Shown here: positions 24 to 30,118 of the stretch, in pieces
How the letters are laid out: each line of letters starts with the position of its first letter
Numbering within the stretch: the stretch's first letter is position 1
From: a virus
IMG/VR virus record: IMGVR_UViG_3300042905_004219
Location: 1-30,118 of that record
Direction: 5' to 3' (one strand)
Length of the DNA stretch: 30,118 bases
Position numbers and translations under genes: made by a program
Notes under the pieces: model-generated
What the model saw: only the letters and a program-made list of their open reading frames with translations
Databases searched by the model: none
What the model was told of the DNA's origin: nothing

Positions 24-791
24 ATGTTCATAAGCGAGATTTCACATTCTAAGCGTGATACTTACAAGCAGTGTGGGTGGAAGTTCTTATTGAAGTACTA
101 CGAGCGCATCCCTGAGACTAGCAACAACGCCGATGCCATGCAGTTTGGCTCGTACATTCATAAGATTTTTGAGCTTGGGGTTAAGGCTAAGACCTACGAT
201 GAGCTAGTTAAGATCGCTGAGGAACAGCGTCAGAACTATACCTTCAATGATAGCTACGAGAAGAAGGTTTTTATCTGCCTCAAGAACTTCCTCAGGTTTA
301 ACGCAACGCTAGAGGAAACTATAGGAACCGAGTTAGATTTTAAGGTAGGGCTGATAGAGGGTACGGATCAGCGAGTAGTTATTGACAGAGTTATAAAATC
401 AAAGCAAGGTAACTACTTAATTATTGACTACAAGACTAGCGCGGATGAGAAGACTAAACTAGAGTTATTCAATAATGACCAATTGAAAGCATACACCTAT
501 GCGGTATCAGAGCATTTTAAGATTCCGGTCACCAAGGTCATTGCAGCACACTATTACCCATTGACCAACAATTTTGTTCATGTCCAATACTTGCCCGGAC
601 AGATACAAAAGTACCTGAATGAGGTGCGTAGGGATATCTGGGACATCCGAAAGAAGAAAAAAGAAGACTTCACCCCCAGAAAGAACGAGTTCTGCAACTG
701 GTGCGGGTACAAGGACAAATGCACCGAGTTCTACAGTCCTCAGGATGTTAAGTGCAGAATAGACGAGGCTAAGAAAAAGACTAAGACTTAA
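24..791 (+). CDS. Cas4/RecB-like PD-(D/E)XK nuclease with Fe-S cysteine cluster
   Basis: The predicted protein has 255 aa and is probably a DNA exonuclease or endonuclease of the PD-(D/E)XK superfamily, Cas4/RecB type, acting on phage or host DNA in the cytoplasm. Visible motifs in order are an N-terminal helix with C17, H46 in a GSYIH segment, D121 in VIDR, D135-Y-K137 (the (D/E)xK core), Q153-x3-Y157 (the RecB-family QxxxY motif), and C224-x2-C227-x5-C233. C17 plus the three C-terminal cysteines match the four ligands of the 4Fe-4S cluster in Cas4 and AddB nucleases. ATG 24 is chosen over an in-frame TTG at 12 because GGAG (14-17) lies 6 nt upstream. It is the only replication or recombination-type gene here. 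Lysine is coded AAG in 26 of 33 cases, unlike downstream genes, which suggests a different origin or expression class. The family call is firm; the biological role is inferred. Confidence 0.85.
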   Translation: MFISEISHSKRDTYKQCGWKFLLKYYERIPETSNNADAMQFGSYIHKIFELGVKAKTYDELVKIAEEQRQNYTFNDSYEKKVFICLKNFLRFNATLEETIGTELDFKVGLIEGTDQRVVIDRVIKSKQGNYLIIDYKTSADEKTKLELFNNDQLKAYTYAVSEHFKIPVTKVIAAHYYPLTNNFVHVQYLPGQIQKYLNEVRRDIWDIRKKKKEDFTPRKNEFCNWCGYKDKCTEFYSPQDVKCRIDEAKKKTKT

Positions 792-1059
792 TCAAGGGGT
801 CGTATAAGTCGATCTCAATAGCATCAAAAAAATTATCTACCTGATCAGGAGAATACTTACATCTCTTGGTCAGGTAGGTATATAAAGTAGTCTTCTTTAT
901 TGGTTTTTGGTTATCCATACTTTCCAGTATTTTAAGCTGGAATAGTTTTATAAAGGAAGAGCTAAATCTATGCTTCCATTTATCCTCAAATTTATTTGAT
1001 AGAGTAAAATTAATCAAATCTAAAAAATCTATTATGTTTTCATCTATATTTTCAACCAT
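781..1059 (-). CDS. conserved-looking hypothetical protein, only minus-strand gene
   Basis: This is a 92-aa protein that I do not recognise with confidence. It is rich in Phe, Leu, Ile, Asp and Lys and reads as a mainly helical soluble protein. The C-terminal half has alternating hydrophobic positions (TTLYTYLTK, then a YSPDQVDNFF segment), which could form a small helix-turn-helix-like fold, but that is a guess. No signal peptide or membrane segment is seen. Its 3' end overlaps the last codons of the convergent nuclease gene by 11 bp, and its start lies 11 bp from the divergent start of the next gene. There is no Shine-Dalgarno sequence before the ATG. Instead a perfect TATAAT lies 6 nt upstream, so the transcript may be leaderless. 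No plus-strand ORF competes for the region, which supports it being real. Confidence 0.6.
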   Translation of the reverse strand: MVENIDENIIDFLDLINFTLSNKFEDKWKHRFSSSFIKLFQLKILESMDNQKPIKKTTLYTYLTKRCKYSPDQVDNFFDAIEIDLYDPLIKS

Positions 1060-8740: not shown

Positions 8741-11353
8741 ATGACAGTAGATCTTAATGTTTTAGGTCAAACTTTAAATGCCTCCAATGATAATGATTTA
8801 CTTAGAGGCTTGGGGATGCAATTTGGTGTCCCTGAGTGCTTGATGAACATTGCCATTGCTGGGGGGGCTGCTCTTTTTCCAAGCCAAGTCTTAGGCCAAA
8901 TGGCGAGCAAGATTCAGGCGGGGAGAAATAAAGCTAACGATAAAATATCTCAAATAAAAAAGAATATTCTGTTAACCTTAGGATTATGGGAAGATGATGG
9001 TGAGGGTGGTTATGTATTAAAATCTATTCACAGCGCAGAGGGGCTGGCTGGACTAGGGGAGGCGCTGGATGCAATTGGAACAGTCGTGGGTACTGGAGCC
9101 GCTATATATGACCAATATCAAATTGCTGCCGCTGAATGGGCTGCAATCGAAGACTGCGTAAATCAGGCAGCATTGTTTTTTAAATCATTGGGGAATAATA
9201 CAGGATTAAGTCCACAACAAATTCAACAAAAATTTGCTGCCGAGACAGCCCAAATTTTTGCCGCAAGATCTTTCATTGAAAGGGCAGATGCCGCATTAAC
9301 CAATATTGGACAAGTTTTACTTGATAGAAAATTAAATCCAGATCTAGAACCCATAATCATAGAACCTACCTTATCCGCTTTCGGAAAATTTATTGCTCCT
9401 CCAGTTCCAACGGACCCCGTTTTCCGATTGGTGTTCGGTCCTCCTAAATCTAAAAAAGGTCAGTTTTTGTTGTCCGTGGATGGATTGTACTACGACTCAC
9501 AAAAAGGTGGAGTTCCTGATGTTGTAGGATTTGTTCCGCCTGAAGATTACTACAAGTTTGATTTCCCTGCGAATTTGGGTGGTAAAGGGGAGATGATTTC
9601 TTTAAAGAAGTTAGAAACTTATATAGACACCATTTTTGATCCAGAAGTAATAGATGAGAGCAAGGATATTCAACAGCATTACGCGGCAGATCACTTTTTG
9701 AATGTACTAGAGGGGCAGAGGGATAAACATTTATATGATTTGTCTGCAATGATTCAAAAAGCAAAGGTTCAAGAGAGTCTGACCGATGATTCAGCCATCA
9801 TAGTAAATATGAAACAAAGTATCTACTCCGTGATGGCTCAACATCAGTCTAAAATAAATAGACGAAAAAAACAAATTGAAATCGCCATAAAATCTCCATA
9901 TTTAGCAGGCACCACTCCCGCGTTCGGGCTAGGAGAAGTTCCAATTAATGATTTTGGGCATTTACGAGATTTGAATGTTTCTGTTGCATTTGAAAAGCAA
10001 AAGAAACTAATGTTCAAGCAAGGGGAAGTTTCCGGCGTTGTGCTTCCCATACAACCAAGATTCGTAAAAGCTGCGGAGGCTAGAGCAGCCCCTGCTTTAA
10101 ATTCTTTGATAATTCCTCCTGTCGGAAAAGGTGGAATCATATACGATAATGACTCAACAGCTACTGAGCCTACAATATTGTCACTAACAGATAAAGTGGT
10201 AGATGATGGATTGTTTGCAATATATAATTTCCTCGAAGGGGAAGTTGTGTCCCCCGGATCCACTAAATATACAGTGTTGAATTGCAACTCCACCAATAAC
10301 TACAATAATGCTCAGTTGGTTGCGCTATCACCAAGTTCAGTATTCAGACGAGGATTAGGTATTCCATTTTTAAATGGAATAGTAAAGCTTTCCAACAGCA
10401 ATTCTCAAATAAATTCATTAGGAAGTTTTGTTAGACTTCCAGACACGAATGAGTTTAGAGATTATACCTACAAGCAAAAAGGGTTTACTTTTGAAACTTG
10501 GGTACATGCATCTGGCATAACCACTTCGTTATCTGATGGGGACCCTGATTCGGCATACGGTGTCTCCTGTTTGCATAGACTATTACTTGCTTGTGAAAAT
10601 ACAGGGGGATTAGTCCCAGAGGTTTTGGAAAACCCTGACCAAGCAGAACAATCATTTTCTTCCGACATAGTTAGGGGACTAGTGATGGGTTTTACTAGAG
10701 ACAGGCAAATAAGTAGAGGTTTTGAACCAAATGAATCGACCAATGATGCCGCACAGTCAGTATTTTTCATAGCTCCTACACGATCAGTCAATGGCTCTGA
10801 TGTAGGATTTATAAATAGATCTAGTGTGGAGGAATGTGCTAGTGGGTACGGGTCACTAGCGTTTTCAGTTCCTTTATCCACTAGTGTTCCAAACACTACA
10901 AAAAAACTAAGAGATGTATCGGGTCAATTTATGTACTACTCACTAGCGATTGACCCAGAAAATGACCAAATTAGGCTTTGTGTAGATGGGGAATTAGTGT
11001 CTGTGGCTTCTCTATCTTATAGTTTTGGAATTCCTGCTGGTCAATCTTTGAGGGTTCCAAGTTTTAGAGCCGCAAACAGTTTTGAATATTCTACATCAAG
11101 CACGGGAAATTCTTCGTTCTCAACAGGGCCAAAATTAAATGAATTGTTTACCCCTTGGATCTTGGGTGGGGGGTATACGGATGGATACAGGGCGCAAAAT
11201 TCAGGATTCATGGGGCAAAAGCATGGTCTTAAGAGTGGCCTAAATGGATATTTAGGTAGCACAAAATTCTATTCACGACCATTGTCTGCGTCTGAATCCA
11301 AACAAAATTACGATGCACAGAAAGGGTTCTTTAAGAACATTGATTTATCATGA
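8741..11353 (+). CDS. virion structural protein with C-terminal LamG-like (concanavalin fold) domain
   Basis: The protein has 870 aa. The first 120 residues have a segment around VPECLMNIA followed by a helical run rich in Ala/Gly/Lys. Residues about 170-400 are helical and probably form a coiled scaffold. From about residue 575 the pattern is that of a LamG/laminin-G-like jelly roll: FTFETWVHA, YYSLAIDPENDQIRLCVDGELV, WILGGGYTDGY, then LNGYLGSTKFYSRPLS near the C-terminus. Such domains bind sugars or act as structural lectins. It sits between the spike and gp25 genes and overlaps the gp25 start by ATGA, so a baseplate-associated position is inferred. It has no close T4 counterpart that I recognise. 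Confidence 0.6.
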   Translation: MTVDLNVLGQTLNASNDNDLLRGLGMQFGVPECLMNIAIAGGAALFPSQVLGQMASKIQAGRNKANDKISQIKKNILLTLGLWEDDGEGGYVLKSIHSAEGLAGLGEALDAIGTVVGTGAAIYDQYQIAAAEWAAIEDCVNQAALFFKSLGNNTGLSPQQIQQKFAAETAQIFAARSFIERADAALTNIGQVLLDRKLNPDLEPIIIEPTLSAFGKFIAPPVPTDPVFRLVFGPPKSKKGQFLLSVDGLYYDSQKGGVPDVVGFVPPEDYYKFDFPANLGGKGEMISLKKLETYIDTIFDPEVIDESKDIQQHYAADHFLNVLEGQRDKHLYDLSAMIQKAKVQESLTDDSAIIVNMKQSIYSVMAQHQSKINRRKKQIEIAIKSPYLAGTTPAFGLGEVPINDFGHLRDLNVSVAFEKQKKLMFKQGEVSGVVLPIQPRFVKAAEARAAPALNSLIIPPVGKGGIIYDNDSTATEPTILSLTDKVVDDGLFAIYNFLEGEVVSPGSTKYTVLNCNSTNNYNNAQLVALSPSSVFRRGLGIPFLNGIVKLSNSNSQINSLGSFVRLPDTNEFRDYTYKQKGFTFETWVHASGITTSLSDGDPDSAYGVSCLHRLLLACENTGGLVPEVLENPDQAEQSFSSDIVRGLVMGFTRDRQISRGFEPNESTNDAAQSVFFIAPTRSVNGSDVGFINRSSVEECASGYGSLAFSVPLSTSVPNTTKKLRDVSGQFMYYSLAIDPENDQIRLCVDGELVSVASLSYSFGIPAGQSLRVPSFRAANSFEYSTSSTGNSSFSTGPKLNELFTPWILGGGYTDGYRAQNSGFMGQKHGLKSGLNGYLGSTKFYSRPLSASESKQNYDAQKGFFKNIDLS

Positions 11354-24341: not shown

Positions 24342-26894
24342 ATGGCAATAATCGATCCATTAGATCCGTGCTTATTGTTTTATCCGGGTGAATTGCCAGA
24401 GGATGTAGCTAATCGTATTGATGGTGGAGTAATTACGGTTCCAAATGGAACTAGAGCTAACGCGGATCCAATTGATCCTGTGATTTGGGAAGAGCCTCGT
24501 ATACCCCCACGACCGCCAATAGATCCGGGGGAGCCTACTGGACCCGGAGGCCCCGGTGGTCCCGGTGGTCCCGGAGATGATGATGGCCCGGGGGATCCCG
24601 GTGGTCCTGATGGCCCGGGGGATCCCGGTGGTCCTGATGGGCCGGGAGATCCAGAGGGTCCTGATGGGCCGGGAGATCCAGAGGGTCCGGGTGGGCCAAT
24701 AGATGATGGTGGGGATGATGACGGACCCCCAACAGTTATAAAATGGAAATGCGAAACAATTACCCACTATATTGACGGATTTGGTGGGACTGTAACCGTA
24801 GTTAGAAAAGTTTGTACTTCTACTACAGATGCTAACGCCCCATTCAACACATTATCGGAATGTGTAGCCGAATGTCAGTCTGTAACAGTATTAGATGAAG
24901 GGGAAACTCAAACACCAACAGAAACAGAACCAGAACCTCCGGGGGAAGGTGGAAATAACCCTGATGAAAATGATGATGGCCCGGGTGGGGAAATTATAAT
25001 AACCCCCGGGGGGCCTCAAACTCCGATAGAACCAGAGGACCCGGATACTGAATATGATGAGGGGGAAATCACTTACTCCGCAGATGCTGTAGCTACATTA
25101 CCAAATTATTTCCCTACAGTAGACACAACACAAACAACAGAATTTTTGGAGCAAGGCAACCAAACCACAATCTTTGCATCCTTGCAAGCTCCAACTATTA
25201 ACTATTTAATCAGACAACCTCCCGTTGGATCAATCAAAGCGATTAATGAAAAATTAAAAAAACTTAATCCTAACAAAATAAAAGATTCAGTATCTAAAAA
25301 TTTTGCTGATATTATTTATAATTTGGTTGAGCCTGATGGTCGAAGAGTGCCGGATTCTAGAATAAGCACTTCCTTGCAAATGTATTTATTACAAGGAAAA
25401 GCTCGAAAAATAAATACTAGTTATTTACTAAAACTACAAATAAGAGCAATTCTTGGACAAGCAACTACTACCACAAGATTTATAAATTACATTGATTCCA
25501 GATATTCTCCCAACCAAATAAATCCTTTAGTTAATCGTGTGTTGAATATGGGAAGATTGAACGCTACCAGAACAACGCAAAGGTCTATTACTCCAAACAG
25601 CCAAAGAGGAGTTGCTAGAGCATTACAAAGTGCTAAATCTTTGGATTATAGAAGGTATACCGACGCTAAATCAGAGCACTTGAAATTGTGGAACATTCTA
25701 CCTGAAGATATTTATGCACGAATTACGGTTGCGGATCAAGATGGAAATACAAGTAGATTAAATGTTAAAAATGATTTATCCCTCCTAGCCACAGCTAGTG
25801 GAAGTCAACCAATTAGAGTTCCCATAAACAATTACTTATTTAATATTTATGTAGATACTGCATCAGGCACGGTAACTGTTCCCGCAGATTCTGAATTAGA
25901 CAGAGCCGTAACTTTAAATAACAAAGTAGAGCAAGCGTGTTTGTTTGATTCGGGTGTGGAAAAAGAATATGTGTTAAAAGTAACATCTCCGTCTGATTTA
26001 AATATAGAATTGACTTATGATGTTTCTGCACCCCGTCCAAATCATTATGTCTTAATTTTAGAGGCATCTACAATACAAGATGCGGAAGTTAAAAAATCTC
26101 CATTCGTTAGGACATCTCTTGCTAATTACAGATTGGAAACAAATGCATCTACGATTCAAGATGCGCTTAAATTTAGAATTTATCCATGGCAAGTAATGCC
26201 TGTGTATCATGACGATCCATTATTGGCGCATTTTACAACCAGTTCTACTTATCAAGTTGAATTTAATGATTTTAGTTTAGAGGAATTTGGTGATGATATA
26301 AGTGGACCAATATTCATAAGAAGAATACCAAAAGCTATTTTAGTATTACCTACGGACAGATATGATTATTTAATCTACAATGGGCAATCTCGCCTAGATG
26401 ATTGGAATGTAAGATCATTAAATTTTGTTTTAAGTCCTGATCCTAACTATTATGATGTAGGACTTAGGTCTAGTTGGACTAAAATTAATTTAGCATATCC
26501 AAACACAGACATAGAAAATAATATTTCTGAACATGGGATATTTGCAACATACGAAACTTCAGTTCCAATAATAAATAATACTTATGTAAATCAAGTTGAA
26601 CCCACTCGAACAGAAAATGGATTTAGGGTGGCGGTAAAAGTAGCATCTGGATTAAATGATGCTTATAATACTAATAATGGAATTCTATGGTCTGATGTTT
26701 ATTCTAGGTTAACTGAACAACAATATAAGACTCATAAATTAAATATATCCGATAGAATGTTAGAAAAATTAAGAAAAGGGGAAAAGACTGGGTCCCGGTT
26801 AGTTCATGATAAAGGTCAGTTTTTATTAACTAGATTAACTGGATTAAAACAAAATAAAACTAATCCATTCCCAATTTATTTGACTAGAGAATAA
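24342..26894 (+). CDS. tail fibre-like protein with Gly/Pro/Asp tandem repeat and four-cysteine module
   Basis: The protein has 850 aa. Order: a short N-terminal segment (1-60), a Gly/Pro/Asp-rich repeat (66-130), a small cysteine module (133-181; C137, C158, C174, C178), a second Pro/Glu/Gly-rich linker (190-240), then a larger mixed domain (250-850) with a helical part ([15 protein letters not shown]) and a beta-rich C-terminus. The Gly-rich part is collagen-like in composition but does not keep glycine at every third residue, so it is not a strict Gly-X-Y triple helix. The Cys module spacing (C-x20-C-x15-C-x3-C) suggests a metal-bound or disulfide mini-domain. A virion surface role is inferred. 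The GC-rich repeat stands out from the AT-rich surroundings. Confidence 0.6.
24582..24689 (+). repeat. four tandem 27-bp repeats coding D-G-P-G-D-P-(G/E)-G-P
   Basis: There are four in-frame copies at 24582-24608, 24609-24635, 24636-24662 and 24663-24689. Copies 1 and 2 are identical. Copies 3 and 4 are identical except for the last base (CCT against CCG). Copies 2 and 3 differ at several sites, so the array looks like two separate recent duplications. It is followed by a partial GGT GGG CCA unit and preceded by shorter GGT-GGT-CCC units. The segment is a strong local GC island. Confidence 0.95.
26064..26165 (+). repeat. two copies of a 21-bp element, each able to form a 6-bp hairpin
   Basis: The copies at 26064-26084 and 26145-26165 match at 19 of 21 bases and lie 81 bp (27 codons) apart. 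Both code for ASTIQDA. In each, GCATCT and AGATGC form an inverted repeat around an 8-nt loop. They lie within the 850-aa gene; the flanking protein sequence is not repeated. Confidence 0.6.
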
Positions 26895-26895
26895 A

Positions 26896-27348
26896 ATGCC
26901 TAAAATAATAACTGAAAATCAAGTAAATCAAACAGGGGGATATATCCCTGTTCCAACGGTAACAGGAACTGTTTTTTCTGGATTTACTACAGTAATGAAT
27001 GGATTAAGTAGATATACTCATCCTGTACTAGGAGATTGCCAGCCTACAATACCTCCTCCATTTTTTTCAGTTAATGTGGGCGGTGTCCCTATTCATTATG
27101 GATCTGCCCCATTAAATTGTGGGGTTGCTAATGTCGGAATTGGGGAAGTTTATTGTTATGAAAGAGTGCCCGATTCTAGCTTACCTTTATTTTTTATACT
27201 ATTCCCTATTGGTGGGGGTGGTTCAAATTATACTCCACCTTCCCTTGATACTGGAACTCCTCCATATTTGGGTGGAGGGGATGAGGATGATAATACGCAA
27301 GGGGGAGCGGATAACCCTAACTCTGATTATGCCCCAGTCATAAAATAA
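26896..27348 (+). CDS. small protein, PAAR-like spike-tip candidate
   Basis: The protein has 150 aa. Residues 21-90 show a degenerate repeat pattern like PAAR spike-tip proteins: GFTTVMNG then THPVLGD (H42, D47, C48), then SVNVGGVPIHYGS (H67), then LNCG (C75) and GIGEVYCY (C87). PAAR proteins bind one metal by three His and one Cys and cap the spike; here H42, C48, H67, C75 and C87 are candidate ligands, so any site would differ. The C-terminal 50 residues are Gly/Pro/Asp-rich and probably unfolded. It ends the tail block, just before the terminator-like hairpin. The spike gene at 7585-8739 has no PAAR tip of its own, so a separate tip protein would fit. Alternatively it is an unrelated small structural protein. 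Confidence 0.4.
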   Translation: MPKIITENQVNQTGGYIPVPTVTGTVFSGFTTVMNGLSRYTHPVLGDCQPTIPPPFFSVNVGGVPIHYGSAPLNCGVANVGIGEVYCYERVPDSSLPLFFILFPIGGGGSNYTPPSLDTGTPPYLGGGDEDDNTQGGADNPNSDYAPVIK

Positions 27349-27430: not shown

Positions 27431-27838
27431 ATGAAACACTTAAATATCTCAGATGAAGCGATGAAGATAATTCTCGAAAACTCAGCTTGGGGCCAGTTTG
27501 GACTCAAAGTTGATGAAGCCAAGCAGCCAATAAACGAAGAAGCCGAAGAGGTTTCTGAAGAGGCTGACGAGCATGTTTGCCCTCTATGCCAATCACACCT
27601 CCAAGAGGCCATAAGTGATGAGGCTTTGATGGAGCATACCGCCAATGTCCTCGAAGCAGTTAATGCTGCTACCCTCAATGAGGAAGAGGAAGAGGAAGAT
27701 GGCGAAAACCTCTCCGAGGAAGATGATGAAGATGAGGATGAAGATGAGGATGAAGATGAAGACCTCGAAGAAGGTAAAATGCCACCTCAGCTAATGAAAG
27801 CAATGAAAAAGAAAAAAGGCATGATGAAGAAGAAGTGA
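27431..27838 (+). CDS. small acidic protein, probable prohead core/internal head protein
   Basis: The protein has 135 aa from ATG 27431, chosen over an in-frame ATG at 27404 because AAGGA (27417-27421) is 9 nt upstream. The N-terminal 16 residues end in I14-L-E16, a (L/I)-x-E motif like T4 prohead protease sites. A CPLC pair (C50, C53) with H56 and H69 may bind zinc. Residues 84-114 are almost all Glu/Asp, and the last 20 are Lys/Met-rich, giving strong charge separation. T4 prohead core proteins such as gp67 are also small and highly acidic, which makes that role plausible but not proven. It is the first gene after the promoter-like box. Confidence 0.55.
   Translation: MKHLNISDEAMKIILENSAWGQFGLKVDEAKQPINEEAEEVSEEADEHVCPLCQSHLQEAISDEALMEHTANVLEAVNAATLNEEEEEEDGENLSEEDDEDEDEDEDEDEDLEEGKMPPQLMKAMKKKKGMMKKK
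27722..27763 (+). repeat. acidic microsatellite, GATGAGGATGAA units
   Basis: Two perfect 12-bp copies lie at 27731-27742 and 27743-27754, flanked by shorter GATGATGAA and GATGAAGAC units, in frame, coding the Asp/Glu run. Such a run can expand or contract by slippage without shifting the frame. Confidence 0.8.
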
Positions 27839-27887
27839 GTCTAAACTCACATCTATTAAACTTGCTGGTAGCAAAAAAGGTGTAACT

Positions 27888-28445
27888 ATGGATTCACTAA
27901 ATCGTATATTTAATTCAATTAATGAAGCTAAAAAAGCCAAGGCTAAATCTAAAAAAGGAATGGTGGGCGAAACACCAAAAGGTGCGGCCAATCGGTACGA
28001 CCATGATTCTTTTGGGATGAAGGCTGAATCTTCCCACATGGGCAAGAAAAAGAAGTTAATTGGTAAGCAGGGTAAGTTAGACAGAAACAAAAACGGAAGA
28101 TTGGATGCACAAGACTTTAAAATGATTCGTGGAGAGTCCTCCGAAATCGTAACTGTTCTATCTATTCTAAAAGAAGCCTATCAAGATGAACTTATTTCGG
28201 AAGAGGCATTCTTAGCTATAGCTGACCCAATCATGCGTTCATTGATGGAGGTAACTTTTCCCGATACATTTCAAAAGGAAGACCTAGATGATGCAGAAGA
28301 GGAAGATGCAAAAGCTAAATCTAATGGTCCAAAAAGAGTAAAGAAGGGTCCAAAACCCAAACCACCTTCAGGCACTGCGGGAGATCGTAGAAAAGAAAGA
28401 CACGCAGACGCTTCCGATAAAAGATCAATGAACCCCGGTAAATGA
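27888..28445 (+). CDS. small charged head-region protein with EF-hand-like loop
   Basis: The protein has 185 aa. Residues 1-13 end in I11-N-E13, another (L/I)-x-E motif, and are followed by a Lys/Ala-rich segment. Residues 65-76 form D-R-N-K-N-G-R-L-D-A-Q-D, a calcium-loop pattern (acidic or Asn ligands at 1, 3, 5, Gly at 6, hydrophobic at 8, acidic at 12) of the EF-hand/dockerin kind. Residues 85-120 are helical and acidic; the last 50 are basic and Pro/Lys-rich, ending in MNPGK. AAGG lies 7 nt before the ATG. An internal head protein role is inferred from charge and neighbours. Confidence 0.6.
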   Translation: MDSLNRIFNSINEAKKAKAKSKKGMVGETPKGAANRYDHDSFGMKAESSHMGKKKKLIGKQGKLDRNKNGRLDAQDFKMIRGESSEIVTVLSILKEAYQDELISEEAFLAIADPIMRSLMEVTFPDTFQKEDLDDAEEEDAKAKSNGPKRVKKGPKPKPPSGTAGDRRKERHADASDKRSMNPGK

Positions 28446-28455
28446 GGATAATTAA

Positions 28456-28866
28456 ATGACGAAACAATTTTCTATTGGTGATTTTGCAATGTCACTCATT
28501 GAACAAAATAAAGATGAGTACAAGAAAAGTGTCTCTAATGGATTACCTGTTTCAGTAGCTCCAGATCCTCACGCGCCTGACTTTTCCAAGATACGGGTAG
28601 ACGAAGATACAGTTACAGATATTTTTGCTAAATCCTTTGGTATCAAGAAGAAGGCTGTTGAAAAGAAGCCTGTGGTGGAAAAGCGGGTGCCTACGCGAGT
28701 GGTCAGAGAAAACAAAAAATCTCCTGAACAACTGATAGCTGAATTTGAACAAGTTTTAGTTCAAGCTAGAGGATTGATTCAGGAGATGACCACTTGTGGA
28801 ATGCTTGGCGTTAATATGGCTGGGCCAACAAAAAAGAAAAAATTAAAGAAGAAGTGGAAGTATTGA
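28456..28866 (+). CDS. small charged head-region protein
   Basis: The protein has 136 aa and unknown function. Its first 16 residues end in L14-I-E16, a (L/I)-x-E motif. Residues 25-60 contain a Pro/Asp-rich turn (VAPDPHAPDF), then a Lys-rich helix, a coiled-coil-like segment (PEQLIAEFEQVLVQARGLIQEM) and a very basic tail (KKKKLKKKWKY). GAGGA at 28444-28448 is 7 nt before the ATG. The polarity and basic tail fit the other small proteins of this block. Confidence 0.55.
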   Translation: MTKQFSIGDFAMSLIEQNKDEYKKSVSNGLPVSVAPDPHAPDFSKIRVDEDTVTDIFAKSFGIKKKAVEKKPVVEKRVPTRVVRENKKSPEQLIAEFEQVLVQARGLIQEMTTCGMLGVNMAGPTKKKKLKKKWKY

Positions 28867-28867
28867 T

Positions 28868-29254
28868 ATGAGAATAATTAATTTATTACGAGAATCTCGA
28901 TTTGGGGGAGGAAGAGGTTCAGATACAGGAAGACAATTATTCTCTTCCAAGGAAGGTACTTCCCGTCAAAAAGTAAAATCAACAAAAGGAAGAGTAAGAG
29001 TTTTTAAATCAATATCAAAAGCTTTAGGAGCTTTGGATTATGGATCCATTTTTTCAACTGTAGCTAGTGACAGGCTTTATGTCGTTACTCGTCCTACTTG
29101 GGGTGAAAAAAGTAGAGAACATGGGAACAAAGTAGCAAAGGGATTTGCAGCAGGCACCGCATTTTCACAGATAAAAGGCTACGCAGCTAGAACAATAAAA
29201 AAACATGGTAAGAGCAATGCTGCAAAATTTAAAAAATACAAGGAACACAATTAA
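28868..29254 (+). CDS. small basic head-region protein with possible cleavable N-terminus
   Basis: The 128-aa protein is strongly basic. The first ten residues read MRIINLLRES. L7-R-E9 is a (L/I)-x-E motif followed by Ser, and it recalls the short capsid targeting peptides of T4 internal proteins. The remainder is Gly/Lys/Arg-rich with one beta-like segment (DRLYVVTRPTW) and a Lys-rich end. GGAAG at 28856-28860 is 7 nt upstream. It overlaps the next gene by TAATG. A packaged DNA-binding protein is a plausible role but is inference. Confidence 0.55.
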   Translation: MRIINLLRESRFGGGRGSDTGRQLFSSKEGTSRQKVKSTKGRVRVFKSISKALGALDYGSIFSTVASDRLYVVTRPTWGEKSREHGNKVAKGFAAGTAFSQIKGYAARTIKKHGKSNAAKFKKYKEHN

Positions 29255-29919
29255 TGTCTTTCTTAGATAATATACTTAATAGAGTTCGTTCTGGTGCCAT
29301 TAGAATGGCACAGAGGACTCATCGTCCCCGCACGGAGCCTCCCACTCCTCAAGCTGTTTCAGCAAGATTAAAAAGAGAAAACCCTATTGCATTTAAAGAT
29401 TCAGAATTGAAAGATAAAGGATACGCTGGACTTTCTAATTTAGAAAAAATAAAAATGCGAGATAAAATAAGAAAACAAGGAGATGAAGTGTTTTCTTCTG
29501 GTTCTAGCACTGGAAAAGAAATGTTAGATGCTTTGCGTAGAGGAACTGCCGCATCAAGAGAAACACAAGGTATCACATATGGTGATAGGGACGCTGACAT
29601 TTTAAAAGCTAGAAAAAAAAGACTAAACAGGAAACAAGCTCTTGCACGGGGTAAGGGGGGTGGACCTGATTCCATTCCGGGGGAGGATGATGAACTTCCC
29701 GATCCAAATCGTTTTGGGGCAGGAGTATATGATTCAACTTATTACGGCAGCATAGCAAAATTAATTAGAGAATCTTTCCAATTAAACGAAAAGAAGCTAT
29801 GTGCTAGAGGTAAGTCCGCTGCAAAGAGAAAGTTTTCCGTTTACCCCTCTGCATATGCAAACATGTATGCATCCGCTGTTTGTTCAGGTAAAGTAAAACC
29901 CGGTGGAAAGAAAAAATGA
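29254..29919 (+). CDS. basic head-region protein with C-terminal YPSAYAN module
   Basis: The protein has 221 aa. The N-terminal 150 residues are basic and low in aromatic residues. Residues 170-179 contain LIRES (I171-R-E173) and L177-N-E179, two (L/I)-x-E motifs in a row. They are followed at once by a basic module at 180-221: C183-A-R-G-K, KRKFSVYPSAYANMYASAV, C210, and a Lys-rich end. I recognise this tyrosine-rich YPSAYAN pattern as recurrent in aquatic phage proteins, but its function is unknown to me. Cleavage at E173 or E179 would free a peptide of about 42-48 aa. The stop overlaps the next start (ATGA). Confidence 0.6.
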   Translation: MSFLDNILNRVRSGAIRMAQRTHRPRTEPPTPQAVSARLKRENPIAFKDSELKDKGYAGLSNLEKIKMRDKIRKQGDEVFSSGSSTGKEMLDALRRGTAASRETQGITYGDRDADILKARKKRLNRKQALARGKGGGPDSIPGEDDELPDPNRFGAGVYDSTYYGSIAKLIRESFQLNEKKLCARGKSAAKRKFSVYPSAYANMYASAVCSGKVKPGGKKK

Positions 29920-30118
29920 TCAACGAAGACTTAAGAAAATGGGTTGCCGAAAAATGGGTTGATATCGGAGCACCAAAAAAAGGTGGGGGATTCAAACCAT
30001 GTGGCAGGCAAGAGGGGGAAAAACGCAAGGGATATCCCAAGTGTGTTCCTCTTGCAAAAGCCCATTCCATGTCTAAAGGTCAAAGAAGATCAGCAGTCAA
30101 AAGAAAAAGAGCAGCCGG
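29916..30118 (+). CDS. small basic cysteine-containing protein, truncated by the window end
   Basis: This CDS is partial, with 67 codons plus two bases seen and no stop before the window end. The ATG overlaps the preceding stop (ATGA). The readable part has two tryptophans (KWVAEKWVDI), a Gly-rich turn, C29 in PCGR, C43 in YPKCVP, then a strongly basic stretch (QRRSAVKRKRA). The Cys pair with its flanking Gly/Tyr/Pro could form a metal site or small hairpin. The protein resembles small basic modules I associate with aquatic phages, but I cannot name the family with certainty. Its place after the YPSAYAN protein suggests it is another member of the internal head-protein group. Confidence 0.6.
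   Translation, partial: MINEDLRKWVAEKWVDIGAPKKGGGFKPCGRQEGEKRKGYPKCVPLAKAHSMSKGQRRSAVKRKRAA

Follow-up and report, generated by a model that had tools for sequence, protein, structure and literature searches.

The small genes at the 3' end of a 30,118-base fragment of an uncultured T4-like phage (the window, which is the whole IMG/VR record IMGVR_UViG_3300042905_004219) very probably encode proteins that short targeting segments bring into the prohead core and that an S77 protease cuts; as part of the same explanation, this end of the window would form the start of the head gene cluster. The array, g1 to g5 and the incomplete g6, follows baseplate genes (gp25- and gp6-like) and other large genes, presumably tail genes. 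In the proposed mechanism, the targeting segment would be a stretch of some 8-16 residues, amphipathic in appearance and closing with (L/I)xE, placed at the N-terminus or between modules. The adjacent S77 prohead protease, a gp21 homologue, would cut behind its Glu, and a module that is small and in most cases basic would be set free in the head interior. The cargo would consist of g2, g3 and g4 together with the modules at the C-termini of g5 and g6, whereas the acidic g1 would belong to the core and itself be cut up. Head-interior targeting, surmised in a preliminary description of the window, is well supported by a protease adjacent to the array in relatives, by conservation of a glutamate in g4 and by the occurrence of one tag on unrelated cargoes. 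Judging from their sequences, these particular proteins would enter the head and be cut. Injection, and any role inside (restriction block, host takeover, DNA handling), are speculative, and the host modification and DNA condensation suggested early on amount to guesses.

T4 gp21 cleaves after (L/I)xE (reviewed in PMC9026906), and a gp21-like protease, which the preliminary description had proposed to look for elsewhere in the genome, was indeed located in relatives of the window. Seven viral contigs with close relatives of g4 and 11 with relatives of g1 were found, among them two nearly identical to the window in DNA (L002/L033, 97.7% over 4.3 kb; L008, 98.5% over 5.5 kb). Beyond the point where the window ends, L002 carries the whole of g6 (284 amino acids, aa) and then g7 (93 aa). 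Next comes a protease that matches Peptidase_S77 at E=1e-22 and belongs to PHROG 207 (head maturation protease); a gene for a scaffold-like protein follows, and after it a Gp23 capsid gene (E=1.6e-73). The protease gene thus directly follows the array, and in the L008 contig its start is present, with the first 45 residues. The L002 protease retains the catalytic His and Ser blocks known from T4 gp21, and the capsid protein of the lineage carries VNE or LNE near the site of LTE in T4 gp23. The closest capsid protein of an isolate is only ≈ 32% identical, so that the isolate collection holds no close cultured member of the lineage.

When the translations of the open reading frames (ORFs) were rechecked, every (L/I)xE motif claimed for g1-g5 was found at the residue given for it. 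Alignment of homologues separated the sites. In g4, whose family members are 34-95% identical to the window protein, 96% of the 56 aligned homologues retain Glu9, and the four other Glu residues persist in 9-18%; Glu13 of g2 is present in 21 of 21 aligned members, some of which are protease fusions sharing a module with g2. An N-terminal (L/I)xE is retained in 49 of 59 g3 homologues, though at a shifted position. The first site of g1 did not stand up equally well: of 62 aligned homologues, 24% have Glu16 and 98% have Glu36. The expectation of mostly Lys-rich products likewise held in part: the cargo of g2 is Lys-rich and that of g3 ends Lys-rich, whereas g1 is acidic (44 D/E vs 13 K/R). The AlphaFold2 (AF2) model of g4 is of low confidence (predicted local distance difference test score, pLDDT, 64; predicted TM-score 0.60); a Foldseek search of this weak model against the PDB gave no match, nor did tblastn of g4 against named phages.

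The clustering of the motif, on which the first description had leaned, is weak within the window alone and becomes clear once relatives are added. An N-terminal (L/I)xE ending at residue 8-20 occurs in 4/5 array genes and 4/18 other window ORFs (Fisher p=0.033); for an end at residue 7-20 the other ORFs rise to 6/18 (p=0.089). At the level of families, clustered on residues 21 and up, a motif ending at residue 8-20 was found in 12 of 13 array families against 9 of 30 other families on the same contigs (p=1.8e-4), and shuffled N-termini gave a mean of 1.5 and a maximum of 6 matching families out of 13. In the stretch upstream of the protease in eight relatives, the sequence MNYIQRI(Y/H)DLL(V/T)E, about 14 residues long, heads several genes whose remainders are unrelated by blastp. 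One tag on families that are not independent suggests that the tag travels while the cargo changes. Look-alike variants head g2 (MDSLNRIFxxINEA) and a gene of 51-56 aa absent from the window (MIYKKIFNLLTEA or MNTYQRIYDLLTEA). In a 99-kb relative, two more small genes with the lineage tag (MNTYQRIHDLLLEA, MNHYERIAQLIYES; positions 8745-9214) lie about 42 kb from the array and are probable further cargo. An independent S77 set showed a modest enrichment around the protease (9/19 vs 6/32 families, p=0.03).

Tag-like segments are also found inside longer polypeptides. The claim that IRE and LNE of g5 stand directly ahead of a basic C-terminal module was borne out by a PHROG 27331 match covering residues 180-221. 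The complete g6 homologue of the relatives is a single 284-aa ORF with, in order, the LRKW module, a segment ending LINE, a further stretch, a segment ending LITE, and DUF6321, the only domain above the Pfam cut-off; on contig L023 a 486-aa ORF holds several tag-plus-module units. With a cut-site-free anchor for such junctions, S-[ITV]-[EDQ]-x-[FILRMV]-G, 31 of the 43 contexts had Glu at +5, and no other offset had it in more than 5%; large ORFs that appear unrelated account for several of the exceptions and for a few of the matches. Searching with a second lineage's protease returned 80 loci, on contigs that are not all independent; of the 68 proteases found, 47 are extended at the C-terminus by 100-423 residues. 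In these extensions, those of the L153 type among them, segments such as DSIELFGDIIFE and SSTEILGRTVVE stand ahead of diverse modules. Sequences resembling the EF-hand-like module of g2, itself matched at E 0.04 and below the Pfam cut-off, occur in the protease extensions and in the T7-like cyanophage P-SCSP2. It appears rather likely that a large group of uncultured T4-like phages delivers a polyprotein toolkit of exchangeable modules, each with its own targeting and cleavage segment, placed beside the protease or fused to its C-terminus, from where the protease would cleave its own cargo free in the prohead.

The same modules recur untagged elsewhere. P-SCSP2 (L048:4058-5036) holds much of the set as five tiny ORFs in the interval between scaffold and major capsid genes, in HTVC027P and DSL-LC04 modules are separate small ORFs near the capsid gene, and the C-terminal module of g5 is a separate ORF in the Pelagibacter phage HTVC027P and the cyanopodovirus P-SCSP2. 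Among 78 instances of DUF6321 in uncultured contigs, a Glu at most six residues ahead of the domain was present in 19/21 with T4-type neighbours and in 16/57 without detected ones, some of the latter probably being short pieces of T4-like genomes. Neighbours of T4 type were used as the criterion because S77 or Gp23 is rare on these fragmentary contigs (2/50 and 1/50). Two contigs have DUF6321 headed by MLSFSEFIVEA (L067) and MLTFQEFITEA (L081). The AF2 model of DUF6321 is confident (pLDDT 91.8) and gave no match in the PDB; since practically all its significant matches among viral models were themselves DUF6321 proteins, including an S-SCSM1 protein with the name 'virion protein', no function could be derived from them. 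A literature search for DUF6321 found no paper.

In T4, ipII and ipIII both begin MKTYQEFIAEA. The first 10 residues of IPIII are enough for incorporation, with residues 4 and 7 controlling targeting and residues 8 and 10 controlling processing (PMC9026906). Tags of similar kind head virion proteins of cyanophages. Published mass spectrometry has detected their cytidylyltransferase in S-SM1, S-SZBM1 and S-CREM2 virions (PMC3037559, PMC9146016, PMC10665884), and a related NMN (nicotinamide mononucleotide) adenylyltransferase in those of S-SCSM1 (PMC9602691). The cytidylyltransferase starts on the pattern MKxF..FLxE, as in MKSFSQFLTET, MKSFFQFLSEA, MKSFTSFFTEA and similar in four cyanophages and MKNFSSFLTEA in S-CREM2. 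In S-CREM2 a T4-derived pattern lies within the first 30 residues of 4/4 non-lysin virion enzymes, chosen post hoc, vs 2/134 undetected proteins. Two virion-detected proteins of this phage are neighbours: gp12 (L148:7704-10313), annotated as CRISPR-associated endonuclease Cas9/Csn1, has RFASFMAEA, a tag of T4 type, among its first 26 residues, and gp13 begins MKDLHSFLTE. Carry-over from lysis has been discussed as an alternative for cyanophage virion enzymes (PMC10665884, PMC9602691); a literature search that covered few subscription papers found no statement linking these enzymes to capsid targeting sequences.

Compared with known systems, the array resembles the T4 internal proteins IPI, IPII, IPIII and Alt in its short N-terminal segments ending in (L/I)xE, its S77 protease and its small basic products, as well as in placing one tag on unrelated cargo. 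It differs in tag sequence (MNYIQRI.DLLVE), in adjoining the protease gene, whereas ipII and ipIII of T4 are located elsewhere, and in having relatives with several modules per ORF and tag-like segments between them, even on the protease. No IPI, IPII, IPIII or Alt family was found among Pfam or PHROGs matches of the array proteins at E<=1, and these searches with g1-g5 gave no named head family. Such homology is not essential for membership of the class, because the mature regions of T4's own internal proteins diverge (PMC9026906). The T4-GC 119/DUF6321 proteins of cyanophages also join these modules in a single ORF, with junctions that end in Glu; their gene, however, stands beside gp15/gp16 and not ahead of the protease, and their tag sequences are others. 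Polyvalent proteins (Iyer et al. 2017, PMC5512222) are likewise phage proteins of several domains for which packaging and injection have been proposed, some of them self-processed, but with larger domains of disparate, mostly enzymatic activities, some metallopeptidase, where the modules of the array are small and basic and are separated by sites of S77 type. No polyvalent-type set of at least two enzymatic domains per polypeptide was seen, DUF6321 of the g6 homologue alone exceeding the Pfam cut-off. T4 provides the known example of this kind of system; so far as the searches go, modules in strings, and strings fused to the protease, are a new variant.

The most serious rival explanation, itself unlikely, takes the small proteins for gp67/gp68-like components of the prohead core or scaffold, required for building the prohead and then chopped up and expelled, not delivered. 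Genes 67 and 68 of T4 lie directly upstream of 21, and the array shares with them this position, acidic (g1) or basic-tailed products and, to a degree that differs between its genes, many (L/I)xE sites, T4 gp68 having a basic C-terminal half and five sites. The protein g1 is acidic, has seven sites, and its 0.052 sites per residue approach the density of T4 gp22 (0.059; gp68, 0.035), so that by position and composition it is probably a gp67/gp68-like core protein, without detected homology. Its CPLC motif (residues 33-70) gave a weak Rad50 zinc-hook match (E 0.0018, below the Pfam cut-off), and may perhaps form a metal-linked dimer. A scaffold-like density is, however, confined to g1 (g2 and g3, 0.022; g4 and g5, 0.008-0.009), and none of the array proteins matched gp67 or gp68 in Pfam or PHROGs. 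Moreover, only one site occurs in g4, whose domain is conserved; close relatives exchange cargo under a constant tag, which is unexpected for an essential scaffold; other types of phage encode the modules without tags; and the DUF6321 protein gp137 of S-CREM2 was detected in virions (PMC10665884).

Less probable still is that the N-terminal helices merely dock the proteins to the core and remain uncut. One clade of g4 (L011, L012, L031) has IID in place of LRE, and Asp at position 10 of T4 IPIII blocks processing while still allowing targeting (PMC9026906). Yet any helix would serve docking, and Glu is kept throughout nearly all g4 homologues and also stands ahead of modules inside fused ORFs. 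Chance matches of a very short motif in Glu- and Lys-rich proteins, with no common meaning, are a highly improbable account: 4-6 of 18 other window ORFs match too, but the family-level enrichment, the selective conservation of Glu9 in g4, the position-specific Glu after a motif-free anchor, the tag common to unrelated cargoes and the protease adjoining the array in relatives all speak against it.

Several observations weigh against targeting to the head interior followed by cleavage. The Peptidase_S77 protease is absent from the window fragment itself, the motif excess inside the window is weak at either limit, and the families sharing the MNYIQRI tag are non-independent instances of the motif. 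On the 99-kb contig (L232), the plain criterion finds an N-terminal (L/I)xE in 27 of 110 genes outside the array, which makes this motif alone a weak predictor. Within the array, g5 lacks an N-terminal tag, the ILE site of g1 is poorly conserved outside its own clade, and one clade of g4 has IID. As to the virion evidence, published proteomes cover relatives, not this lineage (PMC3037559, PMC9602691, PMC9146016, PMC10665884), the four S-CREM2 enzymes were selected after the fact, a whole-proteome test giving 5/52 vs 2/134 (p=0.019), and neither L067 nor L081 showed a T4-type neighbour match in the stretch examined.

Table 1. Features of the small-gene array in the window, with proposed cleavage sites and modules.
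Feature	Position	Strand	Basis
g1, acidic 135-aa protein, CPLC motif, seven (L/I)xE sites	27431..27838	+	composition, homologue conservation
g1 ILE 14-16, proposed cut, clade-specific	27470..27478	+	motif, homologue alignment
g1 INE 34-36, better conserved candidate cut	27530..27538	+	Glu36 conservation
g2, putative tag MDSLNRIFNSINE and Lys-rich cargo, weak EF-hand-like module	27888..28445	+	motif, Pfam
g2 INE 11-13, proposed cut	27918..27926	+	Glu13 conservation
g2 EF-hand-like module LDRNKNGRLDAQDF	28074..28124	+	sub-threshold Pfam match
g3, putative tag MTKQFSIGDFAMSLIE and Lys-rich-ended cargo	28456..28866	+	motif, homologues
g3 LIE 14-16, proposed cut	28495..28503	+	motif
g4, putative tag MRIINLLRE and conserved basic domain of 119 residues	28868..29254	+	motif, alignment
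g4 LRE 7-9, proposed cut	28886..28894	+	Glu9 conservation
g5, without N-terminal tag; internal segment STYYGSIAKLIRESFQLNE ahead of C-terminal basic module	29254..29919	+	motif, PHROGs
g5 internal proposed cuts IRE 171-173 and LNE 177-179	29764..29790	+	motif
g5 module, residues 180-221, starts KKLCARGKSAAKRKF	29791..29916	+	PHROG 27331, E 1.3e-22
g6, incomplete at window end; LRKW..EKWVDIG module	29916..30118	+	PHROG 23735

Elsewhere in the window, an 850-aa protein (24342-26894) has a collagen-like stretch, in place of which its L023 counterpart has Cys-rich repeats. At 26896-27348 the window protein looks different from the 96-aa protein, PAAR-spike-tip-like by eye, that L023, L030 and L031 carry at this place. 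A small opposite-strand gene (781-1059, minus strand) beside an exonuclease-like gene has a close relative in the 99-kb contig (81119-81397).

If targeting to the head interior and cleavage hold, a hydrophobic tag ending in (L/I)xE together with an S77 protease in the genome would predict the head cargo of T4-like phages, even uncultured ones. The repeated detection of cytidylyl- and NMN-adenylyltransferases in cyanophage virions would be explained, as would that of the S-adenosylmethionine hydrolase, kinase and Cas9-like nuclease in S-CREM2 virions, proteins that begin with T4-like tags. DUF6321 and other nameless small modules would be tied to the phage head, and the protease-fused cargo string may represent a possible delivery format.

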